Assembly: GCA_014376355.1 (NCBI GenBank)
Contig: JACMRQ010000162.1
Location: 1-45,446 of the forward strand
From: Arcicella sp.
GTDB lineage: Bacteria; Bacteroidota; Bacteroidia; Cytophagales; Spirosomataceae
Direction: 5' to 3'
DNA: 45,446 nt
The translations under genes and the position numbers were made by a program. How positions within the stretch are numbered: the stretch's first letter is position 1; the number at the start of each line of letters is the position of its first letter. Of the stretch, positions 31,168-45,446 are shown one piece after another. The notes beneath the pieces were generated by a model. The model was not told the origin of the DNA, did no database searches, and saw only the letters and a program-made list of their open reading frames with translations.

Positions 31168-31220
31168 TAAGGGTAAACCCTTAATTCATTTTATAAGGGT
31201 TTACCCTTATAAAATGAATT
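31168..31220. promoter_or_regulatory. Nested palindromes upstream of susC
   Basis: Positions 31183-31220 form a perfect 38-bp palindrome: 18-base arms around TT, with AAGGGT...ACCCTT at the centre. A second TAAGGGTAAACCCTTA (31168-31183) is the exact complement of the core at 31194-31209, so two alternative structures can form. It lies about 180 bases upstream of susC in a 643-base gap without genes (31003-31645). An operator for an unlinked regulator is the likeliest role. The rest of that gap shows only AT-rich sequence and one terminator-like hairpin. Confidence 0.65.
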
Positions 31221-31509
31221 TTTGATATTTCTTCACACAGTTAATGATTTACTTTAGTCTTGTGGCTTTGATAATGGGTATAATTAATTTGGTAATACAA
31301 ATACTGATGCTATTTTTCAATAAAATCTTTGGTACAAATTTTACATTTTTTTAATTTTAAAGCACAATACTAATTTGTCAATTATTGGTATAAAATGAAC
31401 AATTGCTTGAAAATGATGATTTTTTCCCCATAGAGCATGACACAAGTAGGTTTCAATTATTACTTTAAAATTAATTATTAGTGGTATTTTAACAACTTAA
31501 TTGAAAACT

Positions 31510-31544
31510 AAAACCCCACCAAAAATTAATTTCGATGGGGTTTT
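31510..31544 (-). terminator. Terminator-like hairpin at the island edge
   Basis: AAAACCCCA (31510-31518) pairs with TGGGGTTTT (31536-31544) around a 17-base loop. On the minus strand the stem is followed by AGTTTTC, so it could end transcription from the repressor gene about 100 bases away. A plus-strand role is also possible. It marks roughly where the phage-like genes begin. Confidence 0.6.
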
Positions 31545-31645
31545 CTGTGTATATGTGGGCTGTATTGGATCACAACCAATACACTTAAGTACCTAACGAT
31601 AAAACGCTTACAAACATAAATCCAGCTTTGGTGCGGTCATTGGTG

Positions 31646-32065
31646 CTACTTATCTAACATCTTCTCCATAAAGGCAACTTGCTTCTCAAGTCTGGAAATC
31701 TCATTATTCTTTCCATCAATAATTGCCTTTAAGTATTCCTCCGAATTTGTCGCAACCTGAGCGACAACAGGAGGGCTATTTTTCACATCAACTTGTTCGC
31801 ATAAATCAGATAATAATAATGGTCCTGATTTACGCACAAACCTATCTCCATTCAGCAAGGGAAATCTTCTTAAAATAGCGTTGAACGATGTAACCCCAAG
31901 GTCACGGTTTTGATTTAAGGCTCCGTAGATACGTGTGGCATCTGCAAAACCTACTTCTTGTGAGAATTGGGCTGCTTTCATGCCAGACCAATCTAAACAT
32001 TCTTGTACTAGTGTCGAAACAGGTAATTCTGAGTTGTAGGATGTCATTTCTAATGTTTTTTTCAT
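31646..32065 (-). CDS. Probable phage-type repressor (helix-turn-helix plus coiled coil)
   Basis: A 139-residue protein with an N-terminal XRE-like DNA-binding region (about 14-72: VQECLDWSGMKAAQFSQEVG, then IYGALNQNRDLGVTSFNAIL) and a C-terminal heptad-rich helix (about 112-137: ISRLEKQVAFMEKMLDK) suited to dimerisation. It lacks the C-terminal peptidase domain of LexA/CI repressors, so induction by RecA-stimulated self-cleavage is not expected. It is transcribed away from the excisionase-like gene, with repeated operator-like sites between them, which is the usual layout of a lysogeny switch. The assignment rests on fold impression and context. Confidence 0.65.
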   Translation of the reverse strand: MKKTLEMTSYNSELPVSTLVQECLDWSGMKAAQFSQEVGFADATRIYGALNQNRDLGVTSFNAILRRFPLLNGDRFVRKSGPLLLSDLCEQVDVKNSPPVVAQVATNSEEYLKAIIDGKNNEISRLEKQVAFMEKMLDK

Positions 32066-32071
32066 TTTTAG

Positions 32072-32134
32072 AGATATTTGTACTATTTAATAGATATTTG
32101 TGTGCTTAAAAAGTATTTTTGTGCTATATTTGTG
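32072..32134. promoter_or_regulatory. Repeated operator-like sites and promoter in the divergent gap
   Basis: AGATATTTGT occurs at 32072-32081 and exactly again at 32092-32101. A variant, AGTATTTTTGTG, starts at 32112 (same 20-base period) and CTATATTTGTG starts at 32124. TATATTTG at 32125-32132 matches the Bacteroidota -7 consensus TAnnTTTG for rightward transcription. The sites lie between the repressor gene and the excisionase-like gene. Confidence 0.55.
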
Positions 32135-32195
32135 AAAGTTACTCAAATAGATGGTACAAATGTACTGCTTAAATTTATTATACCACATTATTAAT

Positions 32196-32522
32196 ATGGA
32201 AAACAATACAGAAACTTATCAGACGGTACTTTTAATCCCTCAAAGTGAGTGGCTATCAGTTAAATCACAACTAAAAGAGTTGCAAGAAAGTACAATATTA
32301 CTAAAAGACAACACACAAAACAATACAGAGGAGAATAATAATAAAATTATTCCATACGATGAAGCGTGTAAATTTTTGGGGATTGGGAAAGAAAGTTTAG
32401 TAAGGGCGAAAAACGAAGGTAGAATCAAGGGAATCCGTGGATATTCCCGAGGATTCAGTTACAAAATGAGTGATTTAATACAGTACAAAAAGAATTTTGG
32501 TAGAAAGGAAAAAGTAGCATAA
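32196..32522 (+). CDS. Small helix-turn-helix (excisionase/MerR-like) protein
   Basis: 108 residues from the ATG at 32196 (MENNTETYQT); the frame is open from 32151, but those 15 residues are hydrophobic and atypical. A helical N-terminus and an Asn/Glu-rich linker precede a winged-helix region at about 52-100 (IIPYDEACKFLGIGKESLVR, then GYSRGFSYKMSDLIQYKKNF), the HTH_17 form found in phage and conjugative-element excisionases. It may be an excisionase, a Cro-like regulator or an activator of the genes that follow. No integrase is in the window to pair with it. Confidence 0.7.
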   Translation: MENNTETYQTVLLIPQSEWLSVKSQLKELQESTILLKDNTQNNTEENNNKIIPYDEACKFLGIGKESLVRAKNEGRIKGIRGYSRGFSYKMSDLIQYKKNFGRKEKVA

Positions 32523-32559
32523 CAGTTTATTTTTATTCATTTACTAACCACAAACCGCT

Positions 32560-33405
32560 ATGTCAGAAATTACAGGGCTGTGGATTCCCTTAGAATATCT
32601 TCACAACGGAAGACTATCAAGAAACGAAATACTTATCATTTCGTATATCAAATACAGAGCTGAATATGGGATTTACAAAGGTGGGAATACTGAAATATCA
32701 AAAGTCTTAATGATTCATAAAGTGAGGGTTTCAGAGTCAATTTCAGGACTACTTTCAAAAGGTTTCTTAGAACGAAGTGAAAATAAATATTATAAAACTT
32801 CTAAAAAATATCTTGACTTAGAAAAGGATATAGTTACGGAAACCGTAACTATTGAAGAAACCGTAAAAGTTACGGAAACCGTAACAAAAAGTTACGGAAA
32901 GCGTAACTCGAAAGTTACGGATTCCGTAACACTATCCTATATAGAAAAAGATTTTAATAATAAGGAGAATAACAATAGTATCGATTCAATCGAAAATGAA
33001 GAAAAACAGATTGACGAAGAGAAAATAAAATTATCTAAAGTTTCACCTAAAAAACCATCATTGCCAGAGATTGAATTCCTCGATTCAGAATTCAAAGATT
33101 TTAATGTTTTTGAAGGGTATTTGCAGAAGGCTCACCCAGAAATTGACACCAGTTTTTATTATCATAAAATTTCATCTTGGATAGACAAAAACACAGGACA
33201 CTTAGCAAAGCGTAAAATTTGGAAAAGTACGGTAAATCAATTTTTAGAAAACGATTACAAGAGAGGTGAATTAGTAACCACAAAATCAAAAGCTAATGGA
33301 AAATCAACAAATTCAAATTATCCAAAACAAGCAAACAGCATTGAGCAACAGGCAACCACCAAAAAACTGGACGACCTCGTTAGTCGATATCTTGCCAAAC
33401 AGTAG
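32560..33405 (+). CDS. Phage-type replication initiator-like protein (lambda O-like layout)
   Basis: A 281-residue protein. Residues 1-90 look like a winged helix (LSRNEILIISYIKY, then STEISKV-type recognition region and LLSKGFLERSENKYY). A low-complexity linker at about 88-125 (VTETVTIEETVKVTETVTKS) is encoded by the iteron cluster. The Lys/Glu-rich middle is followed by a C-terminal helical region (about 175-235: FNVFEGYLQKAHPEIDTSFY) like those of DnaD or replication proteins. N-terminal winged helix, internal iterons and C-terminal loader-contact region recall lambda O. The family is not certain. Its last 110 bases overlap the next gene in another frame. Confidence 0.65.
   Translation: MSEITGLWIPLEYLHNGRLSRNEILIISYIKYRAEYGIYKGGNTEISKVLMIHKVRVSESISGLLSKGFLERSENKYYKTSKKYLDLEKDIVTETVTIEETVKVTETVTKSYGKRNSKVTDSVTLSYIEKDFNNKENNNSIDSIENEEKQIDEEKIKLSKVSPKKPSLPEIEFLDSEFKDFNVFEGYLQKAHPEIDTSFYYHKISSWIDKNTGHLAKRKIWKSTVNQFLENDYKRGELVTTKSKANGKSTNSNYPKQANSIEQQATTKKLDDLVSRYLAKQ
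32833..32930 (+). repeat. Four palindromic iterons inside the initiator gene: candidate replication origin
   Basis: GTTACGGAAACCGTAAC occurs at 32833-32849 and 32869-32885. Variants follow at 32891-32907 (GTTACGGAAAGCGTAAC, one change) and 32914-32930 (GTTACGGATTCCGTAAC, spacer changed). A half-site CCGTAA lies at 32861-32866. Each full unit is a 7-bp inverted repeat around three bases. Starts are 36, 22 and 23 bases apart, so the last three are about two helical turns apart. The cluster is followed by an AT-rich tract, where a duplex could open. Confidence 0.75.
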
Positions 33406-34078
33406 CGGGTTGACTTTGACAGACGACGAAAGCACGGATATTGTCATGAGTTTAACCGATTTGAATTTTGAGATGGCTTTACATGCTGAAAAACTTTACA
33501 AATTGAAATCTACCATCGGAGAAGCCAATATTTTAAAATCAGTTTGTGCATTGCTCAAAATGTTCAGCGATGCAACCAAGGTAAACAAACCGCTTTTAAG
33601 TTCAGAAATTATGATGTGTGCCGATTTTATCATCAAAAAATATACCCACGAATCCATTGCAGATTTTGCCCTTGCACTGAAAGACGGCATTTTTGGAGGT
33701 CACAAATTCTACGGTTCTGTCACCATTGCAGACGTGATAGAAGTCATTGAGAAATACTTTGAAACCAAAGCCCAAAGATTGGAGGAAATAAGCAGAACCA
33801 TGAAAACGTCAGAAAAGACGATTAAAGATAATGGAATTGATAAAATGATACAAGTATATACGCCAGACTATTCAGAGCCACAGGAAGCATTTAAAGATAT
33901 ATTTGAGAGAGAAAGAAGAGAGAAAGCAGGAAATGAATTTAGAAAGTTTCAAGAAAGACTTAAAAAATTAGCTATTACACCCTCAGAATACACAGATTTT
34001 GAACCAATTAACCACCCTCAAAATGACTACTACAACCAAGAAACGCCCCCAATGTTGGATGGACAGGAAGGCAATTAA
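33296..34078 (+). CDS. Unknown phage-type protein in the helicase-loader position
   Basis: A 260-residue protein I cannot assign. It begins inside the preceding gene in a different frame (110-base overlap), starting MENQQIQIIQNKQTALSNRQ. The central part, about 60-165, is a helical domain (LKSVCALLKMFSDATKVNKP, then ADFIIKKYTHESIADFALAL and KDGIFGGHKFYG) and the C-terminus, 170-240, is charged and probably coiled coil (EAFKDIFERERREKAGNEFR). No Walker motif, so it is not an ATPase. Its place after an O-like initiator matches the helicase loader (P) of lambdoid phages, an inference from order only. It overlaps the nuclease gene by 56 bases. Confidence 0.6.
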   Translation: MENQQIQIIQNKQTALSNRQPPKNWTTSLVDILPNSSGLTLTDDESTDIVMSLTDLNFEMALHAEKLYKLKSTIGEANILKSVCALLKMFSDATKVNKPLLSSEIMMCADFIIKKYTHESIADFALALKDGIFGGHKFYGSVTIADVIEVIEKYFETKAQRLEEISRTMKTSEKTIKDNGIDKMIQVYTPDYSEPQEAFKDIFERERREKAGNEFRKFQERLKKLAITPSEYTDFEPINHPQNDYYNQETPPMLDGQEGN

Positions 34079-34466
34079 ACCATCCAACAAAAAGACTGAT
34101 CAGTTGCGAATTGAAGACATTTGTTTGCCCGATGCCAACAGCACAACCACCTCAATTATCACCTATCTAAACTACAACGGTTTTCATGTTTGGCGAAATA
34201 ATACGCACGGTGTTTATGATGTTAAGAAGCAAGTATTCAGGAAGTTACAGTATCAACAACGGGGAGTTTCTGACATCATAGGATATCGTAAAAAAGATGC
34301 AAAGTTTATAGCTATCGAAGTAAAAATTGGTACAGACACAATGTCAGAAGAGCAGGAAGGCTTTTTAATTGGTCTAAAAGAAAGTACAGGTATTTCGATG
34401 GTTGCACAGAGCTTTGATGATTTTCTAAAACGTTGGGAATATCGGAAAGCAAACGGCATGATTTAA
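34023..34466 (+). CDS. VRR-NUC-type nuclease
   Basis: 147 residues from the ATG at 34023; the frame also opens at 33999 (8 residues more). The VRR-NUC version of the PD-(D/E)XK fold is clear: GVSDIIGY with D84, then FIAIEVKIG with E99 and K101, and the trailing SEEQEGFLIGL helix typical of the family. The preceding RNNTHGVYD block probably supplies the first helix and strand. Stand-alone VRR-NUC enzymes are frequent in phages, where they act as structure-specific or Holliday-junction nucleases. It is part of the tightly packed early cluster. Confidence 0.85.
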   Translation: MTTTTKKRPQCWMDRKAIKPSNKKTDQLRIEDICLPDANSTTTSIITYLNYNGFHVWRNNTHGVYDVKKQVFRKLQYQQRGVSDIIGYRKKDAKFIAIEVKIGTDTMSEEQEGFLIGLKESTGISMVAQSFDDFLKRWEYRKANGMI

Positions 34467-34504
34467 CGGAGCATAACCCCAAAACTATAGCATCTTAACA
34501 TTTT

Positions 34505-34711
34505 ATGAAGCCAGACATCAAAAGTATATTTTATCACAATATCTCCAAGAAACGATGTAATGTTATTCACAGAGATTCAAACTTTTACATTGATTCAACA
34601 CCAATCCCAACCGTAATATTTTCAATGGATATGACACCCAGCCAAGTAAGAATATTTACATTAGAACGTTTCGACAAAGAATTTAGCCCAGAATTTACAC
34701 AATCTAAATAA
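34505..34711 (+). CDS. Small hypothetical protein (68 aa)
   Basis: Not recognised. The 68-residue product is basic and beta-rich (FYIDSTPIPTVIFSMDMTPSQ region) with one Cys and no membrane segment. It fits neatly between the nuclease gene (38 bases before) and the next gene (7 bases after) on the same strand, which supports its being real. It could be a small accessory phage protein. Confidence 0.5.
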   Translation: MKPDIKSIFYHNISKKRCNVIHRDSNFYIDSTPIPTVIFSMDMTPSQVRIFTLERFDKEFSPEFTQSK

Positions 34712-34718
34712 CCAAATC

Positions 34719-35285
34719 ATGCAAGAAATTGACATTAAAAAAGTAGAAGTAGGCGAGAAATTTGTAACAATTATCTACGCTAAACAAGAAGCCAGACAAG
34801 GCATTACCATGCCAGTAACCACAAAAAGAAAGTTCCCTTTCAATATCCACGATGAATTAAAGTTGGCATTAGACAACTTAAAAGTGCACTTTGCCCTAAT
34901 TACGGAAGCAATTAAAGTGTCAAAAACACAGTCATTCGAGGGTATCGCAAGTTTACAAGAAATGGAAGGCTTTGAAGTAACTGGATTTGAAGTTAAAAAG
35001 TTAGGGGATAATTTAGGTATTATCATATTCGGACACCGTAAATTGCAAGACGGCAGAACCGTAAAATTTACCACCCCATTTATCAATTTTGATATTGAAA
35101 TTTCTAACTACGAATACACCGAAGCGTTAATCGAATCACTGGATATTGCCAAACAAGAAGCCATCGAATACATCAACGGAAAGTTCCAAATCCAAGGAAC
35201 GCAAGTAGGAGTATTCGATACCCCCGAAGAAACCCCAGTCAAAAAACTACCACAAAAGAAAAAACCAGAAAGAAAAGCAGCCTAA
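34719..35285 (+). CDS. Hypothetical phage-type protein with basic tail (188 aa)
   Basis: No family recognised. The 188 residues form an alpha/beta core (about 1-160) with two internally similar halves in layout: VGEKFVTIIYAKQE... and LGDNLGIIIFGHRKLQDGR..., each followed by a TTKRKFPFN or FTTPFINFD segment. The C-terminus is a proline/lysine tail (PVKKLPQKKKPERKAA). Such a tail suggests nucleic-acid contact. It is the last gene of the early cluster and is followed at once by a terminator. Confidence 0.7.
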   Translation: MQEIDIKKVEVGEKFVTIIYAKQEARQGITMPVTTKRKFPFNIHDELKLALDNLKVHFALITEAIKVSKTQSFEGIASLQEMEGFEVTGFEVKKLGDNLGIIIFGHRKLQDGRTVKFTTPFINFDIEISNYEYTEALIESLDIAKQEAIEYINGKFQIQGTQVGVFDTPEETPVKKLPQKKKPERKAA

Positions 35286-35301
35286 AACATTCATCGCAAA
35301 G

Positions 35302-35330
35302 TCACAGCCATAAACTGTGATTTTTCTTTT
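35302..35330 (+). terminator. Intrinsic terminator after the early phage-like cluster
   Basis: TCACAG (35302-35307) and CTGTGA (35315-35320) form a 6-bp stem with a 7-base loop, followed by TTTTTCTTTT. It ends the 32.2-35.3 kb transcript. The remaining sequence to the hsdM start at 35670 (about 340 bases) is AT-rich with no gene, RNA or clear repeat; it must hold the hsdM promoter, but no exact TAnnTTTG was seen. Confidence 0.75.
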
Positions 35331-35669
35331 ACCCCGCTAAAATATATCAGTTCCAACCAAAAATCAGGTAATTCTGTGCTAAAAACAATCCATTTAATTC
35401 AGTAATATTGATTTTTAAATCTTTACAGAGTTATATGTTTGGATAGTGCAACGCAATTTTAGCCTAAAAATTACCATTAACCCGATGCCTTTCAGCTACT
35501 TAAATAATGTTTTTTAAGGCTATCTACAATAAAATCAAGATAATCAAAAATTAATAAATAGGCTAAGTAAAGTATTTTAAAAACTAACTTTACACCCTAT
35601 TAGGTAACTTTAAATTATCCCCTAAAAAATTAAACAACCCTAATACAACCAAAAGAAATAATATTAATA

Positions 35670-37232
35670 ATGGCAAAAAAAGAACTAAAACAAAAAGGAA
35701 TTGAAGAAACCCTCTGGGAATCAGCCAACAAATTAAGAGGAAGTGTAGAACCAGCCGAATATAAACACGTTGTCCTCGGACTTATATTCCTGAAATTTGC
35801 CAGCGATAAATTTGAAGAACACCGCAAATTAATGATTGATAAAGGGCAAGAAAAATACATCGAAATGCCCGATTTCTATGGCATGGCAAATGTCTTTTAT
35901 TTAGACGAAGAATCTCGCTGGACCTACATCATCAAAAACTCCAAGCAAAACGATATTGCCCTAAAAATTGATACCGCCCTGCACAATATTGAGAAAAATA
36001 ACAAAGCTCTCAAAGGTGCTTTGCCCGACAATTACTTTTCTCGTTTGGGTTTAGACATTACCAAACTCGCTTCCCTGCTCGATACCATCAACGATATTGA
36101 TACCCTCAAAGATAAAGCTCAGGATATTGTGGGCCGAGTTTACGAATATTTCCTTTCCAAATTTGCCTTGGCAGAAGGAAAAGGCAAAGGGGAATTCTAC
36201 ACGCCCAAAAGTATCGTAAACCTCATTGCCGAAATGATTGAGCCATACAAAGGCATCATCTATGACCCCGCTTGTGGCTCTGGTGGTATGTTTGTCTAGT
36301 CGATTAAGTTTATTGAAAACCACCACGGTAACAAAAAAGAAATCTCTATCTACGGACAGGAATATACCAATACCACCTACAAACTGGCAAAAATGAACCT
36401 TGCCATCAGAGGAATTTCGGGCAACTTGGGTGAAAAAGCAGCCGATACTTTTGCCGACGACCAACACAAAGACCTCAAAGCCGATTACATCATGGCAAAC
36501 CCTCCCTTTAACCAAAAAGATTGGCGTGCCGAAAACGAACTAAAAGACGATCCACGCTGGCGAGGATATGACGTGCCACCCAAAAGCAACGCCAATTACG
36601 GATGGATTCTCAACATGGTTGCTAAACTCTCCGACAACGGTGTGGCTGGTTTTATCCTGGCAAACGGTGCTTTGAGTGGTGGCGGTGAAGAATATAAAAT
36701 ACGCAAAACATTAATTGAAAATAACTTGGTGGAAGCCATTGTAGTATTGCCCCAAGATATGTTTTATACTACCAATATCAGCGTAACGCTTTGGATATTG
36801 AACAAAAATAAAAAAGCTCACAGTAGAAGTATCGGTGACCAACAACGCCATTACCGCAACCGTGAAACTGAGATCCTATTTATGGACTTACGCCAAATTG
36901 GCGAACCCTTTGAAAAGAAATTTATTCAATTTAGCGAGCAACAAATCAGCAATATTGGTAAAACCTACCATACTTGGCAACAGGAAATGAAAGGTTACGA
37001 AAATATCCCCGAGTATTGCTACTCAGCTTCGTTTGAAGAAATTGCCAAAAAAGACTTTTCACTCGTTCCCAGCAAATACATCGAGTTTGTAAACCGAGAT
37101 GAAAATATTGATTTTGACGAGAAAATGACCACTTTGCAAAGTGAATTTGCAGATTTACTGAAAGCTCAAGAAAAATCAAAAAGCGATTTACTGGATGTTT
37201 TTAAAGAGTTGGGATTTGAAATTAAAGTGTAA
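35670..37232 (+). pseudogene. hsdM: Type I restriction-modification methyltransferase subunit, interrupted by one TAG
   Basis: The reading frame gives a 520-codon HsdM, normal length, broken only by TAG at 36297-36299 (codon 210). The N-terminal part has the HsdM helical domain and motif I of adenine-N6 methyltransferases (YDPACGSGGMFV), immediately before the stop. The frame resumes as SIKFIENHHGNKKEISIYGQ, and motif IV ANPPFN is at about 276-281. Relatives read GGMFVQS or similar here, so a CAG-to-TAG transition is the simplest history. The ATG at 36393 could start a C-terminal fragment lacking motif I. As drawn, no functional modification subunit is made unless the amber codon is suppressed or the base is a sequencing error. 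Confidence 0.88.
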
Positions 37233-37285
37233 ACTTCAGATCTCAAATAATAGATGATTCCGTAATGCTTATATAAAAACTTAAA

Positions 37286-38206
37286 ATGACCGATAAATTA
37301 GCCTTGATTTCACCGAATGAAATCGAAAATCAAATTTTTACGCTTCGAAACGTTCAAATTATGATAGATTCGCATTTAGCCGAGATGTATGGGATTGAAA
37401 CAAAAGTATTGAATCAAGCGGTAAAACGAAATATTGACCGATTCCCTCCCTCTTTTAGGTTTCAATTAACTGAAGATGAATTTGCTCATTGTGCAAGGTT
37501 ACAAAATATGACCTTGAATGACCATGTAAATTTGAGGTCACAATTTGTGACCTCAAGTTTACATGGAGGAAGAAGATTTCTCCCCTACGCCTTTACAGAA
37601 CAAGGTGTGGCTATGCTCTCTGCCGTACTCAGGAGCGAAACTGCAGTACAAGTGAGTATCCAAATTATGAACGCCTTCGTAGGAATGAGAAAATTGCTCA
37701 TTAATAATGCTGGTTTACTCCAAAGAATTGAAAGCGTAGAAAATAAATTGACGTTAAATGATGCTAATTTTGAACGCATCTTCACCGCCTTAGAAAGTAA
37801 TAATATCACCCCAAAACAAGATATTTTCTTTAATGGACAAATCTATGAAGCATACAGTTTTGTCATAAAACTGATTGAAAAAGCACAAAAAAGTATAGTG
37901 CTGATTGATAATTATGTGGATATTAACGTATTGGATATGCTGGCTAAAAAACAAAATAAGGTAGCCATTACCATTGTTACGCAGCCTTCAACACCACTGA
38001 AACCAATTGATATTAGCAAGTTTAATCAACAATATCCAACGATATTACTGAATCATACCAAAGATTTTCATGATAGATTTTTAGTAATTGATAACCAAGA
38101 ATTATATCATATTGGAGCTTCACTCAAAGACCTTGGTAAAAAATGTTTTGCTTTTTCACTGATTGAAGAAAAACAACTTTTGAGTAACTTATTGAATAAA
38201 TTATGA
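37286..38206 (+). CDS. ORF6N-domain protein with C-terminal PLD-like region
   Basis: 306 residues. The ORF6N DNA-binding domain covers about 10-130, with the typical FTLRNVQIMIDSHLAEMYGI, AVKRNIDRFPPSFRFQLTE, LRSQFVTSS and LPYAFTEQGVAMLSAVLRS. A short helical linker follows. The C-terminal 120 residues (IYEAYSFVIKLIEKAQKSIVL, then KDFHDRFLVID) resemble a phospholipase-D-like fold, though only one HxxxF-type element is clear. Genes of this kind are commonly inserted between hsdM and hsdS in Bacteroidota; their function is unknown. It overlaps hsdS by 4 bases (ATGA), so it is translated with it. Its coding sequence contains a large palindrome at 37522-37566. Confidence 0.85.
   Translation: MTDKLALISPNEIENQIFTLRNVQIMIDSHLAEMYGIETKVLNQAVKRNIDRFPPSFRFQLTEDEFAHCARLQNMTLNDHVNLRSQFVTSSLHGGRRFLPYAFTEQGVAMLSAVLRSETAVQVSIQIMNAFVGMRKLLINNAGLLQRIESVENKLTLNDANFERIFTALESNNITPKQDIFFNGQIYEAYSFVIKLIEKAQKSIVLIDNYVDINVLDMLAKKQNKVAITIVTQPSTPLKPIDISKFNQQYPTILLNHTKDFHDRFLVIDNQELYHIGASLKDLGKKCFAFSLIEEKQLLSNLLNKL
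37522..37566. repeat. 45-bp near-perfect palindrome inside the ORF6N gene
   Basis: The 22-base arms 37522-37543 and 37545-37566 (outer ends CCATGTAAA and TTTACATGG; centre GAGGTCACAA / TTGTGACCTC) match at 21 positions; the exception (37531 opposite 37557) is a T-G wobble. The encoded residues NDHVNLRSQFVTSSLHGG include the family-conserved LRSQ and TSS positions. Chance is unlikely at this length. Confidence 0.75.
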
Positions 38207-39444
38207 AAGCAAATTATAAAAAAATAGGAGAACAAATTCAGCTTGTGGATGAACGAAATAAAGGTTTGCGAGTAAAACAACTTTTGGGTCTAAGTATTTC
38301 AAAACAGTTTATCCCTTCTGTTGCCAATATTATCGGAACGGATATGGAGGGGTATAAAATTATCCGTAAAAATCAATTTGCTTGTAGTACCATGCAAGTA
38401 AGACGAGATAAAAAAATGCCCGTTGCTTTATTACAGCAAGTTGATGAAGCCATTATTTCACAAGCCTATCCAGTTTTTGAAGTAAAAGACAAGAATGAAC
38501 TTTTACCAGAATATTTAATGATGTGGTTTACTCGCTCTGAATTTGACCGTGAGGCTTGTTTTCATGCCGTTGGAGGCGTTAGAGGAAGTTTAGAATGGGA
38601 AGATTTTTGCAATATGAAACTCCCAATCCCATCCATCATCAAACAAAAAGAAATTGTAAAAGAATACAACGTTATCCAAAACCGAATTACCCTCAATCAA
38701 CAACTCATAAAAAAGTTGGAAGAAACTGCCCAAGCTATTTATAAACAATGGTTTATAGACTTTGAATTTCCTGACGAAAACGGAAAATCTTATAAAAGTA
38801 GTGGTGGGGAAATGGTGGAAAGTGAATTGGGGGAGATTCCTTTGGGGTGGGAAGTTAAGAGCTTGTTTGAGTTGATAAATTATAAAAAAGGATTTGCCTT
38901 TAAATCAGAAAACTATAAATCAAGTGGAGTGCCAGTATTCAGAGTTTCCGATTTTACAGATAAATCTATTGACGTTACTAATTGCTACTATTTAGATGAA
39001 TTCATGGCTATTGAGTTAGAACAATATGCCTTGAACACAAATGATATAATTATGACTACTGTTGGTTCTTGGCCAGATAATCCTGCATCTATCGTTGGTA
39101 AAGTTATCATTGTACCTGAACTTGCAAACGATGGATTGCTAAATCAAAATTCAGTTAGATTAAGAGCGAAGGACATTGCTAAACAACTTTTCATTTATTA
39201 CCGATTAATTAGCAAAGATTATTCAGAATTTGTTATTTCAGGTGCACAAGGAAGTGCTAATCAGGCAAGTGTAACATTAGAATATATTTTTAGTTTTAAA
39301 ATAGTTGTTCCAAATAATGTAGATAAATTACTTTTGGCTCTAAACAAAATGAATGAAAATGTTTTGAAAACTAATACTGAGAATCATTTTTTAGTAAAAC
39401 TAAAACACCTACTACTTTCCAAACTCGCCACGATAGAAAATTAA
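38203..39444 (+). CDS. hsdS: Type I restriction-modification specificity subunit
   Basis: 413 residues with two target-recognition domains. The first is about 1-150 (ending LEWEDFCNMKLPIPSIIKQK, the usual TRD close), followed by the central conserved helix (EIVKEYNVIQNRITLNQQLIK...KLEETAQAIYKQWFIDFEFP). The second starts at LGEIPLGWEVKSLFELINY (about 209) and ends before the final distal helix (LLLALNKMNENVLK...HLLLSKLATIEN). Both halves look complete, so the subunit should be able to bind a bipartite site. It is translationally coupled to the ORF6N gene. The recognised sequence cannot be predicted by eye. Confidence 0.94.
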   Translation: MKANYKKIGEQIQLVDERNKGLRVKQLLGLSISKQFIPSVANIIGTDMEGYKIIRKNQFACSTMQVRRDKKMPVALLQQVDEAIISQAYPVFEVKDKNELLPEYLMMWFTRSEFDREACFHAVGGVRGSLEWEDFCNMKLPIPSIIKQKEIVKEYNVIQNRITLNQQLIKKLEETAQAIYKQWFIDFEFPDENGKSYKSSGGEMVESELGEIPLGWEVKSLFELINYKKGFAFKSENYKSSGVPVFRVSDFTDKSIDVTNCYYLDEFMAIELEQYALNTNDIIMTTVGSWPDNPASIVGKVIIVPELANDGLLNQNSVRLRAKDIAKQLFIYYRLISKDYSEFVISGAQGSANQASVTLEYIFSFKIVVPNNVDKLLLALNKMNENVLKTNTENHFLVKLKHLLLSKLATIEN

Positions 39445-39608
39445 TGAAATGGAAATTAATGATTAAACTAAATAGAAGGGTAATTAATGTAATCTCAATA
39501 ATTAGGGATGACGAGTATTGTTATTATCCGTAGGATAATAACAGTTAACAATAAATAATTGTAAAAAGTTGCCTAAGTAGTACCTTATCGTTTTCCAATA
39601 AATAAAAA

Positions 39609-39651
39609 GTCCAGTTTTTTTTATAATAAACTGGACAAAATAGTATATTTG
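39609..39651 (+). promoter_or_regulatory. abiE promoter with overlapping inverted-repeat operator
   Basis: TATATTTG at 39644-39651 matches the Bacteroidota -7 element TAnnTTTG and lies 16 bases before the abiEi start. Just upstream, GTCCAGTTT (39609-39617) and AAACTGGAC (39628-39636) form a perfect 9-bp inverted repeat with a 10-base centre, covering the -33 region. AbiEi antitoxins are known to repress their own promoter by binding inverted repeats. The surrounding hsdS-abiEi gap is 223 bases with no gene. Confidence 0.75.
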
Positions 39652-39667
39652 TATCAGAAATAATACA

Positions 39668-40393
39668 ATGAAAACATCTGATAACATAGCATTTACCATA
39701 GATAGACTACCCAAAGGCTACGTATTCACCTACGTTGATTTTACTACCGAGGTGAATAAAAAGGAAGCAATTATCAAAGCCTTAAATCGAATGACGGCAT
39801 CGGGTAAAATAAGCAAGCTATCCAAAGGCAAATATTATAAACCCGAAAATACTCCTTTTGGTAAACTTCAACCCAATCAAGCACAAATAGTAAAAGACCT
39901 TTTGGAAGACAACGGTAAAGTAATTGGGTATCTTACGGGGTATAGCATTTACAACCAACTGGGTTTAACTACCCAAGTGAGTAATACCATACAAATCGGA
40001 AAAAACGAGATTCGCCCCAACTTCAAACGAGAACGATATTCAATTGCATTCATCAAACAGAAAAATACCATTACCAAAGATAGCGTACCATTACTTCAAA
40101 TATTAGATGCCATTCGCTATATCAGAAAAATACCAGATGCCACCGTTGAGTCTTCGTGCAAACGTTTTTTAGCCATCTTAAAAACCCTCTCAGAAAAGGA
40201 TATTACGTCATTAATTCGATTAGCCACAAAATATCCACCCGCTACCAGAGCTTTATTGGGTGCATTATTAGACCAATTACAACAAACCAGTTTATCCATT
40301 CCTCTTTTAAAAACATTGAACCCCATCACTAAATATAAGCTATCAGGGGCAACAAAAGCATTATCCACTACCGAAAAATGGAATATAATATGA
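39668..40393 (+). CDS. AbiEi-type antitoxin (DUF6088-like)
   Basis: 241 residues. An N-terminal winged-helix (about 5-60, FTYVDFTTEVNKKEAIIKAL and SKLSKGKYYKP) fits the AbiEi antitoxin DNA-binding domain. The middle (about 80-130, GYLTGYSIYNQLGLTTQVSN) is the characteristic AbiEi core. It neutralises the partner nucleotidyltransferase toxin and represses the pair's promoter, whose operator is just upstream. It overlaps abiEii by 4 bases (ATGA at 40390). It is located inside the restriction-modification operon. Confidence 0.85.
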   Translation: MKTSDNIAFTIDRLPKGYVFTYVDFTTEVNKKEAIIKALNRMTASGKISKLSKGKYYKPENTPFGKLQPNQAQIVKDLLEDNGKVIGYLTGYSIYNQLGLTTQVSNTIQIGKNEIRPNFKRERYSIAFIKQKNTITKDSVPLLQILDAIRYIRKIPDATVESSCKRFLAILKTLSEKDITSLIRLATKYPPATRALLGALLDQLQQTSLSIPLLKTLNPITKYKLSGATKALSTTEKWNII

Positions 40394-41379
40394 AACTACA
40401 CGAAAATAAAACGCTATTTAGGCAAGCCGTACAATTCACTGCCGACCAACTAAAAATTGCCTCCATTTATGTAGAGAAAGATTACTGGGTTACTTATGCA
40501 CTTCATACTATTTTCCATAACAACATAGGCAATGATACCGTATTTAAGGGCGGTACTGCTCTATCAAAATGTTATAAGATGATAGACCGATTTTCGGAAG
40601 ATATTGATTTGGTAGTGCTACGCAGAGAGGGAGAAACAGATAGTAAACTCAGAACGAAACTCAAAACTATCAGTCAAGTGATTGGTGAGGTATTACCCGA
40701 AGTTGAGATTGAAGGAATTACCCACAAAATGGGTATGAACCGTAAAACTGCCCATACCTACGAAAAGATGTTTTCAGGTAATTACGGACAAGTAAGAGAT
40801 GTAATTATTCTGGAATCAACGAGGCTTGGCTATCATGAACCATTTACTAACCGAATGGTGCAGTCGTTTGTAGGGCAAATGATGCTTACGAATGGTCAAG
40901 TGAACATAGCGGAAGCCAATGGTTTGATGGCATTTGAAGTACGAGTACTCGAACCAACCCGAACACTCTGCGAAAAAATCATGAGTTTAGTACGGTTTTC
41001 TTACGGTGAAAATCCAATGGAAGATTTGGGAAAGAAAATTCGACACACCTACGACTTACATCAATTATTACAACAAGCCGAGTTTTCGGAATTTCTACAT
41101 TCAACCGATTTTGATGAAATGTTGCTGAAAGTAGCGAACGATGATGTAATGAGTTTTAAAAATAATAATAAATGGTTAATGAATCATCCCTCAGAAGCAC
41201 TTTTTTTCCGAGATTTAGAAAATGTATGGAAAGAGTTAGTTGCCGTTTATAAGGGAGATTTTAGAAATTTAGTTTATGGTGACTTGCCAAACCCAGATGC
41301 AATATTGGCAACCTTAACCAAGATAAAGAAAAGACTGCAAAATATCACATGGACCATAAAAATTGAAACGAACCTATGA
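40390..41379 (+). CDS. AbiEii/AbiGii-type nucleotidyltransferase toxin
   Basis: 329 residues from ATG at 40390 (MKLHENKTLF); an ATG 12 bases upstream is possible, but 40390 gives the usual ATGA coupling with abiEi. Motifs of the DNA polymerase beta-like nucleotidyltransferase fold: EKDYWV, FKGGTALSKCY and RFSEDIDLVV, with the two metal-binding Asp residues at the end. Type IV toxins of this family block growth, for some members by modifying tRNA 3' ends, and give abortive phage resistance. The stop overlaps the hsdR start by 4 bases, so it is coupled to hsdR translation. Confidence 0.9.
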   Translation: MKLHENKTLFRQAVQFTADQLKIASIYVEKDYWVTYALHTIFHNNIGNDTVFKGGTALSKCYKMIDRFSEDIDLVVLRREGETDSKLRTKLKTISQVIGEVLPEVEIEGITHKMGMNRKTAHTYEKMFSGNYGQVRDVIILESTRLGYHEPFTNRMVQSFVGQMMLTNGQVNIAEANGLMAFEVRVLEPTRTLCEKIMSLVRFSYGENPMEDLGKKIRHTYDLHQLLQQAEFSEFLHSTDFDEMLLKVANDDVMSFKNNNKWLMNHPSEALFFRDLENVWKELVAVYKGDFRNLVYGDLPNPDAILATLTKIKKRLQNITWTIKIETNL

Positions 41380-44300
41380 AATTCACCGAAGCACAATTAG
41401 AAAAGACCTTTACAGAAATATTAGGAGATGAAAATTACCGTCATCAATTGGGCAATACCATCGTCAGAACCAACGAAGAAGTATTGATTGTGGAAGATTT
41501 GCTAAATTATTTACTGACCAAATACCAAAGCAAAAACCTCACCATCACCGAAGCAAAATCTATTGTACTTCAACTCAAAACCCTACCCGCCAGCGATTTA
41601 TACGAAAGTAACAAAACCATTATGCAATGGCTCAGCGACGGCTTTATTCTCAAACGAGAAGACCGCAATCAAAAAGATATACTCATTGAACTAATTGATT
41701 ATAAAGGCTTAGAAGCACAATTAATCAGCAATGACTTAGACGAAATTTCCGTTTCAGAACCAACTGTTAGGTATCAAACCGATGGCAATATTTACAAATT
41801 CGTCACCCAATTAGAAATCATTGGCACCGAAAAACGCATCCCCGATGGCATCATCTACATCAACGGTTTGCCCATAGTAGTCTTTGAATTTAAGAGTACC
41901 ATCCGAGAAGAAGCCACCATCTTCACCGCCTTTGAACAACTCACAAAGCGTTACCGCCGAGACATTCCCGAACTCTTCAAATACAACGCTTTCTGTGTCA
42001 TCAGCGATGGCGTAAACAACAAAGCAGGTTCATTCTTTGCTCCCTACGAATTCTTCTATGCCTGGCGTAGAATCTCAGGATTAGCAAAAGACGTGGACGG
42101 CATCAACAGTATGTTTACGCTCGTCCAAGGAATGTTAAACCAAAACCACTTGCGGGATATAATCCGCAACTTTATTTACATACCCGACACCTCCAAAAAG
42201 AACGAGAAAATTGTGTGTCGCTATCCGCAATATTATGCGGCAAAACGCCTATTCGATAACATCAAATTAGCCCAAAAACCCCAAGGAGATGGCAAAGGTG
42301 GTACCTATTTCGGAGCAACAGGCTGTGGAAAAAGCTATACCATGCTCTATTTGGCAAGATTGTTAATGAAAAGCGAACACTTTGAAAGCCCAACCATCGT
42401 CATGATTACCGACCGCACCGACTTGGACGATCAACTATCTGGACAATTCACAAACGCCAAAAGATTTATTGGCGACAACAACATCATGAGTGTTGAAAGT
42501 AGAGAACATTTGCGTGAATTAATTCAAGGTCGCCAGAGCGGAGGTGTATTCCTAACCACCATCCACAAGTTTACCGAAGACACCCAACTACTTAGCGGCA
42601 GAACCAACATCATTTGTATTTCTGATGAAGCCCACCGTAGTCAGGTAAATCTCGACCAAAAAATAAAAGTGAATTCCGAAAAAGGCACTGTCACAAAAAC
42701 CTACGGATTTGCCAAATACCTGCACGATTCTTTGCCCAATGCCACTTTCGTAGGCTTCACAGGCACACCTATTGATGCCACCTTGGATGTATTCGGAAAA
42801 GTAGTAGATGCCTACACCATGACCGAATCCGTTAACGATGAAATCACCGTCAGAATCGTCTATAAAGGCAGAGCCGCCAAAATAGCACTCAATAACAGCG
42901 AATTAGAAAAGATTGAAAAATACTACCAAGAAGTAGCCGAATCAGGAGCCAATGAATACCAAATAGAACAAAGCAAAGAAGAATCAACAAAAATGAATGC
43001 CATCTTAGGCGACCCAAAACGCCTAAAAGCAGTCGCCGAAGACTTTTTGAAACATTACGAAAATAGAATTTCCGAAGGAGCAACCGTAAAAGGCAAAGCC
43101 ATATTTGTGTGTAGCAGTCGAGAAATTGCCTATAATCTCTATAAAAATGTGATAGAATTACGGCCCGAATGGACAGAAATAAAAGTAGCCGCTGATCACG
43201 TTGAAATTTCGGAAGAAGAGCAAAAGAAAATTAAGCCCATCGAGAGAATCAAAATGATTATGACCAGGGGCAAAGATGACGATGCAATACTTTACAAACT
43301 ATTAGGCACCAAAGAACATCGTAAAACATTAGATGCAGAATTCAAAAATGAAAAATCAAACTTTAAAATCGCTATCGTAGTAGATATGTGGCTCACAGGC
43401 TTTGACGTGCCTTTCTTGGACAGTATTTACATTGATAAGCCAATTACCCAACACAACTTAATTCAAACCATTTCAAGGGTAAACCGCAAGTACGAAGGCA
43501 AAAATAAAGGCTTGGTAATAGATTATATCGGCATCAAAACCCAAATGAATTTAGCACTGAAAAAGTACAGCGAAGGCGATAAAGATAACTTTGAAGACAT
43601 TGCCGAATCACTCATTATTGTCAGAAATCATATAGATTTACTGGCAAGATTGTTCCATACATTCGACAGCTCTAAATATTTTAATGGCACAAACACTCAA
43701 CAATTAAATACGCTGAATTTAGCTTCTGAATATACCCAACAAACCAAAAGTCTTGAAACTCGTTTCATGGGTCTAGTAAAACGATTAAAAGCCGCTTATG
43801 ATATTTGTGCGGGTAGTGAACAACTAAAACCAATGGAAAGAGATACTATCCATTTTTATTTAGCCGTTCGTTCCATCGTGTTCAAACTCACCAAAGGTAA
43901 TGCACCCGACACCGCCCAAATGAACGCTAAAGTGCAAGAAATGATTAAAAAAGCCTTGCAAAGTGATGGCGTACAAGAAATTTTTAAACTCGGAGAAGAA
44001 CAGGAAACCGAACAAGACATCTTTGACCAAGATTACTTAGCTAAAATTGATAAAATAAAGTTGCCAAATACCAAAATAAAATTGCTCCAGCAGCTACTCG
44101 CAAAGGTCATTGGAGAAATGAGAAAAGTCAATAAATCAAAGGGCATTAACTTTACTAAAAAAATGCAAAACTTAGTAGAACGCTACAACGAACGTGACCA
44201 AAACGACATCCTACAAAGCGAAGTCCTTGAAGATATGGCGGAGCAAATCACCAATTTAATTTTGGAAGTTCGTCAAGAATTTTCAGCGGGAGACATTCTG

Positions 44301-44591
44301 GGAATTGACTTTGAAGAAAAAGCATTCTACGATATTCTGAGTGAATTATGTGCAAAATACGACTTCAATTATCCAGAAGATAAATTAATTAAACTGGCAA
44401 AAGCCGTAAAAAATTTAGTAGAAAGTCAAGCTAAATTCCCAGATTGGAATAAACGAGACGACATCAAATCGGCCCTAAAAGTCGGCATAATTTTACTACT
44501 CGACGAATTCGGATATCCACCCGTAGAAAGAGACGAAGTGTACGTAGAAATTTTTGAACAAGCAGAAAACTTTAAAAAGAATAATAATTAG
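41376..44591 (+). CDS. hsdR: Type I restriction endonuclease subunit R
   Basis: 1071 residues, full length. N-terminal nuclease domain of the PD-(D/E)XK type at about 150-180 (PDGIIYINGLPIVVFEFKS). The SF2 translocase motor follows: Walker A GATGCGKS (about 312-320), motif Ia VMITDRTDLDDQL, DEAH box (about 416-420), GFTGTPID, VVDMWLTGFDVPFLD and QTISRVNRKYEGKNKGL. The C-terminal helical domain binds the MTase core. It cleaves DNA far from unmethylated sites but needs HsdM2S for recognition, and hsdM here is broken. Codons are overlapped with abiEii. Terminator and hairpin repeats follow the stop. Confidence 0.95.
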   Translation: MKFTEAQLEKTFTEILGDENYRHQLGNTIVRTNEEVLIVEDLLNYLLTKYQSKNLTITEAKSIVLQLKTLPASDLYESNKTIMQWLSDGFILKREDRNQKDILIELIDYKGLEAQLISNDLDEISVSEPTVRYQTDGNIYKFVTQLEIIGTEKRIPDGIIYINGLPIVVFEFKSTIREEATIFTAFEQLTKRYRRDIPELFKYNAFCVISDGVNNKAGSFFAPYEFFYAWRRISGLAKDVDGINSMFTLVQGMLNQNHLRDIIRNFIYIPDTSKKNEKIVCRYPQYYAAKRLFDNIKLAQKPQGDGKGGTYFGATGCGKSYTMLYLARLLMKSEHFESPTIVMITDRTDLDDQLSGQFTNAKRFIGDNNIMSVESREHLRELIQGRQSGGVFLTTIHKFTEDTQLLSGRTNIICISDEAHRSQVNLDQKIKVNSEKGTVTKTYGFAKYLHDSLPNATFVGFTGTPIDATLDVFGKVVDAYTMTESVNDEITVRIVYKGRAAKIALNNSELEKIEKYYQEVAESGANEYQIEQSKEESTKMNAILGDPKRLKAVAEDFLKHYENRISEGATVKGKAIFVCSSREIAYNLYKNVIELRPEWTEIKVAADHVEISEEEQKKIKPIERIKMIMTRGKDDDAILYKLLGTKEHRKTLDAEFKNEKSNFKIAIVVDMWLTGFDVPFLDSIYIDKPITQHNLIQTISRVNRKYEGKNKGLVIDYIGIKTQMNLALKKYSEGDKDNFEDIAESLIIVRNHIDLLARLFHTFDSSKYFNGTNTQQLNTLNLASEYTQQTKSLETRFMGLVKRLKAAYDICAGSEQLKPMERDTIHFYLAVRSIVFKLTKGNAPDTAQMNAKVQEMIKKALQSDGVQEIFKLGEEQETEQDIFDQDYLAKIDKIKLPNTKIKLLQQLLAKVIGEMRKVNKSKGINFTKKMQNLVERYNERDQNDILQSEVLEDMAEQITNLILEVRQEFSAGDILGIDFEEKAFYDILSELCAKYDFNYPEDKLIKLAKAVKNLVESQAKFPDWNKRDDIKSALKVGIILLLDEFGYPPVERDEVYVEIFEQAENFKKNNN

Positions 44592-44629
44592 TTCCCGCTT
44601 TAACTACACTTTTGAAAATAGTTTATGTT

Positions 44630-44716
44630 TCTCGCTCACCCCGATTTGCAATCGGGGTGGTCTGGTTTAGCGACTGTGTCGCAGTTCACAAAAATCTCGC
44701 TCACCCCGATTTGCAA
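44630..44716. repeat. Hairpin-containing direct repeat downstream of hsdR
   Basis: TCTCGCTCACCCCGATTTGC plus AA occurs at 44630-44651 and again at 44695-44716, identical over 22 bases. In the first copy CACCCCGATT (44637-44646) pairs with AATCGGGGTG (44650-44659) around TGC. The second copy lacks the right arm. A small GCGAC-TGT-GTCGC hairpin (44670-44682) lies between. The pattern is REP-like and marks the junction between hsdR and the minus-strand phage-like genes. Confidence 0.65.
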
Positions 44717-44742
44717 CCTCCAACAAAAGAGAGGTTTTCTTT
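44715..44742 (+). terminator. Intrinsic terminator downstream of hsdR
   Basis: AACCTC (44715-44720) and GAGGTT (44731-44736) form a 6-bp stem with a 10-base loop, followed by TTCTTT. It probably ends the restriction-modification operon, and it sits at the convergent boundary with the gene ending at 44750. Confidence 0.65.
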
Positions 44743-44749
44743 TGCCTAA

Positions 44750-44998
44750 TTACCTCACATCAAATGATTTCTCAGCATCAACCGTACACTGACTTATCAC
44801 AACAGCAACCGCAGAAGCAATAGCCAAATACCCAGCAATCGAAATAACCACCGCAGGAAGAGTAACACCACCCGTTAAAATTGCGGTGGCAAAACCACCC
44901 AGAATTAAACCAATATTACGTAGTTTCTTGAAAAACGGCGGACATGGAGCAACAATTCTTTCGGCAATATTCATGTCATTTGGACTTGAAGTATTCAT
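44750..44998 (-). CDS. Small membrane protein, holin-like
   Basis: 82 residues from the ATG at 44998 (MNTSSPNDMNIAER); the frame extends 3 codons upstream only through a TTG. A polar N-terminus with IVAPCPPFFKKLRN precedes two adjacent hydrophobic stretches (about 27-44 and 47-68), then a short polar tail (SQCTVDAEKSFDVR). Proteins of this layout are encoded in Bacteroidota prophages in holin positions (recollection, not searched). The holin role is inferred from size and topology; no endolysin is in view. Confidence 0.55.
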   Translation of the reverse strand: MNTSSPNDMNIAERIVAPCPPFFKKLRNIGLILGGFATAILTGGVTLPAVVISIAGYLAIASAVAVVISQCTVDAEKSFDVR

Positions 44999-45038
44999 AA
45001 TTAACAATGATTTAAGATTAAAATAAGGATTATAAAAT

Positions 45039-45446
45039 TCAATATCGTGCCTTATCTAACAAAGCCTTGGAACTTGTCAAGTCAGATTTACGCTGCCGTA
45101 ATTCAGCTACTTGTTTAGTATTTTCTTGTATAAGTGTTGCCCGAAGGGACACAATGTTTCGCAGTTCATCCGATTGCCTTTGATATCTATTAATTAAGCT
45201 AAAAGACCTATCATTAAAGGATTTAACACTTTCTAAATTGTGATTCATAATGGCGACTTCATCACTCAATTTCTTAGAAACCGTTCGATGTTCAATCAAT
45301 ACCGAAACAAAACCAGTCACACAAGTATCACAAACGCCATTCTGTGTACTTTCAATCCGTTTGTAGTCAGCAATTAACCGACTAAGCGAATCAACACGTG
45401 ATACAGCATTTTCAACGTCAGAAAAACTAATCTGTGAAGTATCTAA
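45039..45446 (-). CDS. Coiled-coil phage-like protein, 5' end outside the window
   Basis: The frame is open from the window edge at 45446 to the stop at 45039 (135 residues visible), so the gene is partial. A GTG at 45320 could look like a start, but coding clearly continues upstream (SFSDVENAVSRVDSLSRLIA). A CDTC pair precedes a hydrophobic turn, then a long coiled coil (about the last 85 residues, LIEHRTVSKKLSDEVAIMNH and onwards). It lies 41 bases upstream of the holin-like gene and is probably in its operon. The Cys pair and long helix resemble phage structural or lysis-linked proteins. No family recognised. Confidence 0.6.
   Translation of the reverse strand, partial: LDTSQISFSDVENAVSRVDSLSRLIADYKRIESTQNGVCDTCVTGFVSVLIEHRTVSKKLSDEVAIMNHNLESVKSFNDRSFSLINRYQRQSDELRNIVSLRATLIQENTKQVAELRQRKSDLTSSKALLDKARY

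Follow-up and report, generated by a model that had tools for sequence, protein, structure and literature searches.

A probable phage-like element of Arcicella with an apparently exchangeable restriction-modification slot and a candidate lambda-type replication origin

Introduction

Phages and satellites can carry a variable antiviral locus between two of their conserved genes (2022, PMC9122126); in the available part of that report the loci measure about 1-5 kb in Escherichia coli, and prophages of Vibrio type and of Bacillus type are given as two additional cases. The typical size of a satellite, according to the available part of another paper, is 7 to 20 kb (PMC13376191). In lambda and the Stx phages, the replication origin lies in the middle of the O gene and combines iterons with an AT-rich tract (PMC7466680, available part). 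The present work concerns a stretch of 45,446 nucleotides from Arcicella sp. (Bacteroidota; Cytophagales; GenBank assembly GCA_014376355.1, contig JACMRQ010000162.1), hereafter the window, whose right part, from about 31.5 kb onward, is an island of phage-type early genes, a type I restriction-modification (R-M) operon and putative lysis genes. An earlier note, made from the letters alone, had read this island as an early phage module fused to a defence cargo, either a prophage or a satellite replicating from its own origin.

Our analysis indicates that the island, 14 kb long, is probably the left end of a phage-like element inserted in the chromosome, which best explains the whole: an origin of its own, a slot for R-M operons, and packaging that is borrowed or lost. 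Most likely the element is capsid-less and phage-like, a satellite or a remnant. It belongs to a known kind, phages or satellites with an antiviral hotspot; no description of this element family appeared among the titles and abstract openings shown in the literature listings, most subscription papers being outside our reach.

Results

A counterpart at another chromosomal site

The window is an entire contig (C411, ending at 45446) of a 4.67-Mb genome in 524 contigs. From position 1 to about 31.0 kb it reads as ordinary chromosome, the last gene of this block being SusC-like (27784-31002). Host homology to one related genome, G006, stops at 31489 and element homology to another, G004, starts at 31627, which brackets the left junction zone, where attL is expected, between 31490 and 31626; a hairpin search found a terminator-like hairpin inside it (31510-31544). 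The island start proposed earlier, 31510, was correct to about 120 bp.

When 59 genomes, the element's own included, were searched with the putative replication initiator of the island, the only matches besides itself were G004, of the same genus (56% identity), and a short weak one in G036. G004 carries the element in two contigs, C391 and C18. Six proteins of the left module (repressor, Xis-like, initiator, loader-position, VRR-NUC and phrog_9513) are 56-85% identical there, followed by an R-M operon and the holin-like and coiled-coil genes. The left flank of this copy is homologous to contig C4 of G007 (in pieces of 87% and 95%), where an intact tRNA-Val(TAC) comes next, i.e. an empty site; the homology breaks within the last bases of the tRNA, placing the insertion in its 3' end. 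On C18, a tyrosine integrase (Phage_integrase, Arm-DNA-bind_5, Phage_int_SAM_5) adjoins tRNA-Val, and a 13-bp att core, GTGGTCCCACAAG, is present at both ends (attL at L006 1208-1220, attR at L128 5229-5241), as well as in a second, tandem tRNA-Val of L128. The G004 copy thus has the integrase and att sites of a temperate phage; its two assembled pieces, 20.1 kb on C391 and 5.3 kb on C18, give a minimum length of 25.4 kb, and the integrase stands at the right end. A second integrase of G004 (L144, contig C84, 1655-3004), 75% identical to that of the element, lies by a tRNA-Arg, and the genes following it look unrelated.

The window copy sits at another chromosomal place, beside the SusC-like gene, versus a gene read as a CoA-transferase in G004. 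Chromosomes often contain R-M operons and AbiE, and the holin-like family also occurs in small stand-alone chromosomal clusters, so that the island might be taken for an ordinary defence locus of the host chromosome that includes some phage relics. The different insertion site in G004, the empty site in G007 and the integrase and att core at a tRNA largely refute this for the G004 copy, and we consider it highly improbable. The same findings uphold the earlier idea of a mobile island. The comparison with related genomes proposed at that time yielded an empty site and a different location for the G004 copy, and no empty site for the window's own: the SusC neighbourhood of G007 is not syntenic, and G006 diverges at 31489 into unrelated sequence, by reading an insertion sequence, at a contig end. 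Direct or inverted repeats shared by the left end of the window and the right end of C261, a contig of the same genome (G000) described below, were limited to 10-bp matches; a 14-bp match to the left end in G000:C213 was rejected as chance after reading.

A slot holding unrelated type I operons

DNA homology between the window and G004 stops at 35426 (L006 5178) and resumes at 44717 (L006 13534). Between these points lies a cargo slot (35427-44716). Its 9.3 kb were compared with the 8.4 kb that G004 has in this position, and no similarity emerged at E 1e-3, the best chance match having E 0.019. Both cargoes are type I R-M operons, whose proteins are only distantly alike (HsdM 29% identity over 272 columns, HsdS 24% over 283, HsdR 23% over 215). 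The order in G004, hsdR-DUF1016-hsdS-DUF1016-hsdM, differs from that in the window; PADLOC marks the DUF1016/YhcG genes of G004 as candidates PDC-S02. Chance would hardly place unrelated type I operons at the same slot, flanked by conserved genes; judged from sequence, it looks as if this slot, between the replication and lysis modules, exchanges whole R-M cassettes. The defence cargo of the earlier note was thereby supported and, with two copies compared, appears exchangeable.

In the window, the operon runs hsdM-ORF6N-hsdS-abiEi-abiEii-hsdR on the forward strand. This order and the gene identities had been given correctly in the earlier note, which took hsdM as a whole gene. Open reading frames (ORFs) 35670-36299 and 36393-37232 are one hsdM gene in one frame (35670-37232, +), broken by an in-frame TAG at 36297-36299 that falls between motif I (DPACGSGG) and motif IV (NPPF). 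The stop is either fixed in the population or an error of the assembly consensus. Recoding of TAG was rejected as an explanation, the repressor, initiator and hsdR genes terminating in TAG. Downstream lie a gene for an ORF6N-domain protein (37286-38206, +; Pfam ORF6N 106 bits), a PADLOC candidate PDC-S05 (395 bits), and an open hsdS (38203-39444, +; PADLOC). An abiEi-like antitoxin gene (DUF6088/AbiEi; 39668-40393, +; PADLOC and Pfam) overlaps that of an abiEii-like nucleotidyltransferase toxin (40378-41379, +; Pfam AbiEii 98 bits, and PADLOC), as in AbiE type IV toxin-antitoxin systems. The hsdR gene (41376-44591, +) is open over its full length, with HSDR_N, SWI2_SNF2 and a HindI-type C-terminus. 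With hsdR and hsdS open, it is the hsdM stop that leaves the hsdR, hsdM and hsdS set incomplete; because hsdM is broken, the R-M part of the window should be silent, and AbiE and the ORF6N protein may still act in this genome.

We also opened plasmid contexts for ORF6N (5, with 67 records matched), AbiEii (3, with 11 records) and HsdR (4, with 158 records). ORF6N lies between hsdM and hsdS in 1 of its 5 contexts and outside an R-M operon in the other 4. One AbiEii context of 3, from Emticicia oligotrophica (80% identical), is followed directly by a type I R fragment; the other two lie outside type I R-M operons, and one of these adjoins BREX genes. Between hsdS and hsdR, the Chryseobacterium record has a block of other genes, the Psychrobacter record one gene and the Klebsiella record none; the E. 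coli record has a stretch without a listed gene ahead of hsdR. From these contexts the nested arrangement emerges as a variant of known practice.

A candidate origin inside the initiator gene

The gene of the putative replication initiator (32560-33405, +; 56% identity in G004) encodes a winged-helix N-terminus and a conserved C-terminus, with weak DnaD_N and phage replication-initiation matches (E 0.015-0.018). A repeat search found in it four 17-bp palindromic iterons of the type GTTACGG-AAA-CCGTAAC (32830-32931), the third imperfect, with start spacings of 36, 22 and 23. The iteron GTTACGGNNNSCGTAAC occurs at four places within 32833-32930, against a mean of 0.00 in 100 shuffles, and none of 200 synonymous-codon shuffles reached the observed repeat count, so that the iteron-bearing initiator noticed earlier stands. 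The 80 bases after the iterons (32932-33011; AT scan) are 76% AT, compared with a gene median of 69%. In the G004 initiator, repeats of different sequence occupy the same place, and directly after them AT content reaches 80-84%, the maximum of that gene (median 65%); the iteron sequence varies among relatives.

A two-row profile of the protein at the loader position matched 27 of 390 order-level genomes, the element's own included. Twenty fetched stretches held 21 homologs; our ORF-picking rule assigned an upstream partner gene to 17 of these and none to 4, and the partner overlaps the loader-position gene in all 17 pairs. The 17 partners, together with the initiators of the window, L006, L073 and L076, made up a set of 21, in which a repeat excess was defined, against synonymous-codon shuffles, as an observed count reached by at most 1 of 200 shuffles. 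Coding-embedded repeats were in excess in 19 of the 21 initiators (15 with no shuffle reaching the count, 4 with one), compared with 3 of 60 control genes taken from 103 available in the same stretches. The median z was 5.3 for initiators and 0.8 for controls, the latter marking the shuffle null as slightly lenient. An offset of 22 nt ranked among the four strongest in 6 of the 21.

The loader-position gene (33296-34078, +; 63-65% identity in G004) overlaps the 3' end of the initiator gene. In L073 and L076 its place is taken by an unrelated AAA ATPase, above the Pfam cut-off in the former and slightly under it in the latter, which, at the level of sequence, supports a loader role for the differing window protein, short of proof. 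This protein had no match in PLSDB, nor did it, the initiator or the 233-aa and 243-aa proteins described below match INPHARED. In the structure model of the initiator (mean predicted local distance difference test, pLDDT, 51), the sole usable part is a winged helix-turn-helix at residues 20-90 approximately; such a predicted fold is compatible with an initiator, if generic. By analogy with lambda, the element probably carries its replication origin inside the initiator gene.

Lysis genes and the right part of the element

Beyond the slot, on the minus strand, the window encodes a holin-like protein with two transmembrane segments (44750-45007, -) and a coiled-coil, Rz/spanin-like protein cut by the contig end (45039-45446, -), the two minus-strand genes that had been noted before. 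The former is 82% identical in G004, where a GH108 endolysin lies two genes on, and its position and sequence suggest a holin role; the latter is 73% identical to a 197-aa G004 protein that by reading starts with a lipoprotein-type signal. Past the point where the window ends, G004:C391 continues with the GH108 endolysin, a DprA-like SLOG protein, a YopX protein, an exonuclease VIII-like DUF3799 protein and a collagen-like fibre gene. The endolysin belongs to a PHROG endolysin family, so that the G004 copy has a lysis gene as temperate phages do.

By synteny, contig C261 of the Arcicella genome is the counterpart of this right part of the G004 element. It encodes ArdA, a 233-aa protein, a small YopX-region gene, the exonuclease, collagen-like and small genes, a 243-aa protein that is conserved, and a thermonuclease. 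The portion from the exonuclease through the fibre-like genes, the 243-aa protein and the nuclease to the cargo fits within 7 kb. C261 ends in a small gene (L056 3-674) whose product has no Pfam family at E 1e-5. A reading of this gene as host flank was dropped, its position matching a multicopper-oxidase fragment of G004 with a shared hairpin nearby, in favour of a second cargo position. By the G004 element integrase lie that fragment (L128 7212-7799; Pfam) and, by reading, a REP-associated transposase fragment (L128 8386-8607); C261 holds another cargo gene at this place, which is thus a possible second cargo position of the element.

The phage-like content consists of the endolysin, the holin-like gene, the Rz-like coiled-coil gene, exonuclease VIII, YopX and ArdA; a terminase large subunit encoded near a related replication module, described below, also speaks for a phage-like character. 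No capsid, portal or terminase was recognised in the assembled parts of the two elements, which are both partly unassembled (31 non-R-M proteins scanned with Pfam and/or PHROGs, two more of L128, the rest by reading). The earlier note had likewise reported capsid, portal, terminase and integrase absent from the window, and none was recognised in its island part. The lysis module, exonuclease VIII and the collagen-like fibre genes would equally suit a tailed prophage, complete or decayed, with its head and tail genes on unjoined contigs; G004 has an unassembled gap past the fibre gene, and a scan of 67 proteins, encoded in four 20-kb stretches that surround related replication modules in four genomes, found one terminase large subunit (25 of the 60 matched families being listed, so that other virion genes may be there). 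Against such a prophage, C261 runs unbroken across the place where G004 has its gap, and C391 across the place of the gap in our genome, virion genes being recognised in neither stretch. Since the gaps fall in different places and each is bridged by the other assembly, an argument based on synteny, virion genes are not expected in them, and a tailed prophage seems unlikely.

A related module in G124 (contig C117; L182 / L208) points in another direction. There, the repressor, initiator, loader-position, 233-aa and exonuclease set lies beside genes read by eye as VirB4-like, relaxase and coupling-protein genes, as would suit an integrative element of mobilizable or conjugative type that acquired a phage lysis cassette; ArdA occurs on conjugative elements too. 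The order of endolysin, coiled-coil and holin-like genes is nevertheless phage-like, and no relaxase or tra genes were read in the two assembled G004 parts or in C261, a reading that is incomplete, no profile search having been made. We therefore hold an origin of this type to be improbable. The same G124 set also adjoins a pair that by eye looks like AbiEi/AbiEii.

Other genes and side observations

The remaining genes of the left module follow the order given in the earlier note, which was correct from 31.5 kb on apart from the interrupted hsdM (ORFs, Pfam, PHROG, PADLOC and NCBIfam). A divergent gene for a 139-aa repressor-like protein (31646-32065, -) is 85% identical to its G004 counterpart and 31% to that of G124; the product has no PHROG match and no meaningful Pfam match, and position and sequence reading suggest its repressor function. 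Next comes an HTH_17, excisionase-like DNA-binding protein (32196-32522, +; 76% identity in G004); the gene called excisionase-like before is indeed there, and its family assignment draws on weak matches (Pfam HTH_17 E=0.002, below the cut-off, and weak PHROG excisionase matches). A VRR-NUC nuclease gene (34023-34466, +; Pfam VRR_NUC 30.7 bits, cut-off 23.8; 65% identity in G004) is followed by a small open frame of 68 aa without Pfam or PHROG families (34505-34711, +). The phage-type phrog_9513 gene (34719-35285, +; PHROG match, 64% identity in G004) forms the left border of the cargo slot, and its product has two weak matches in INPHARED. Repressor, loader-position, VRR-NUC and small genes were thus all found as listed earlier.

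Copies of a palindromic repeat occupy 44630-44716 (repeat search). They had been regarded as a feature of the island; the palindrome is in fact dispersed in this and related genomes, occurring in contigs C162 and C150 of the same genome, in many copies in G006, and in G007 and G004.

The 243-aa family (L056 2112-2843; L072, L074, L076, L077) was also seen in small chromosomal clusters in 9 of 119 genomes searched, several of which include DUF5675-like, holin-like or thermonuclease genes. It has no matches in Pfam or INPHARED and matches of chance strength only in PHROG and the PDB; possibly it is a phage-derived lysis or coat module. A stretch of about 13 kb in G013 (contig C61; L073 / L207) holds a repressor-like gene, a repeat-bearing initiator, an AAA ATPase loader, VRR-NUC, a thermonuclease, the 243-aa protein and, by reading, a type I hsdM, and is possibly a further member of the element family.

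In the host part of the window, a 17-pair hairpin, AATTCATTTTATAAGGGTTTACCCTTATAAAATGAATT, lies at 31183-31220 upstream of the SusC-like gene; mostly kept in G006 and partially matched in G007, it is perhaps a regulatory site. A 1021-aa protein encoded at 16020-19085 is presumably, by its reading, akin to a lantibiotic-type dehydratase.

Discussion

In the proposed course of events, the repressor would hold the element in a silent state, during which the host is defended by the slot genes. Upon induction, the integrase and the Xis-like protein would excise the element, the initiator would bind the iterons in its own gene and open the AT-rich DNA beside them, and the neighbouring loader-position protein would load the helicase of the host, in the manner of lambda O and P. 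The lysis genes would then release the element. Its packaging is probably borrowed or lost, because virion genes were not recognised. The assembled parts are consistent with the pattern of a phage satellite (integrase, regulator, replication module, virion genes unrecognised), the assemblies being incomplete. It is tempting to go further and picture a capsid-less, tRNA-integrated family of the Cytophagales, with a lambda-O-type origin, its own endolysin cassette and R-M operons traded through a fixed slot, whose members are satellites of helper phages or viruses with unrecognised coat proteins (for instance the 243-aa family on C261); this fuller picture is tentative and somewhat doubtful.

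Several observations tell against a phage-like element of the proposed kind. The window's own integrase, attR and empty site were not found in our searches, both the window genome and G004 are fragmented metagenome-assembled genomes, and C261 is joined to the window by synteny with G004, without an assembled join. The exchange slot is read from two copies. As for the origin, the stretch before the iterons (from 32753) is equally AT-rich at 79%, so that the AT tract is not unique in the gene; the repeat excess is missing from 2 of the 21 initiators, those of L076 and L201; Foldseek returned nothing at E <=0.001 for the initiator model, the weaker matches being only winged helices and DnaD N-termini; and the model of the loader-position protein is unusable (pLDDT 36). 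Six proteins compared with IMG/VR gave as sole match one distant locus, of the 243-aa family, whose neighbouring genes read as those for terminase and portal. Finally, the module of G124 lies beside genes read as tra/mob, and the replication module is therefore not exclusive to phages. Thus, of the early phage module with defence cargo originally described, the phage-like content and the cargo are borne out, with the replication module shared more widely; the proposed origin is probable, and the choice between prophage and satellite is not settled.

If the capsid-less phage-like reading is true, type I R-M operons would travel in Bacteroidota as complete, exchangeable cassettes on phage-like mobile elements, and the slot, bounded by the phrog_9513 and holin-like genes, would serve as a marker for finding further defence systems. 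The coding-embedded iterons offer a directly testable replication origin; to our knowledge, few phage origins are known in Bacteroidota.

The candidate origin shares two features with the lambdoid O-P-ori arrangement: the initiator gene contains, at mid-length, iterons with inverted-repeat symmetry, and a second replication gene follows directly downstream. AT-rich DNA beside the iterons, as in lambda, is clear in G004 and modest in the window. Unlike in lambda, the initiator and the downstream gene share 110 bp, two relatives have an AAA ATPase as the downstream gene, and the iterons differ in sequence from one relative to another. The lambda O family is not among the Pfam, PHROG and NCBIfam matches of the window, a direct comparison with lambda O being no part of this work.

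With satellites of the type of phage-inducible chromosomal islands (PICIs), as described in the available parts of the sources, the element shares an integrase, a tRNA att site (in G004), a divergent regulator, its own replication module and, in the assembled parts, the lack of recognised virion genes. It differs from them in having a lysis module of its own, in lacking a recognised packaging or capsid-remodelling gene and in its size of at least about 25 kb. The integrase at the end opposite the regulator is what we take to be a further contrast to PICIs.

Among plasmids, the type I operon of Treponema pTS1 likewise has ORF6N between hsdM and hsdS and adds a small winged-helix gene, and in the plasmid of Chryseobacterium SNU WT5 a block of other genes likewise separates hsdS from hsdR. 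Unlike those plasmids, the window combines abiEi-abiEii between hsdS and hsdR with ORF6N between hsdM and hsdS, and its hsdM is broken. The variable antiviral loci of phages and satellites (PMC9122126), as far as the available part of that report describes them, share the position between two conserved genes; the present slot differs from them in that its contents, 8.4 and 9.3 kb long, are entire type I R-M operons, in an element of the Cytophagales, between the replication and lysis modules.

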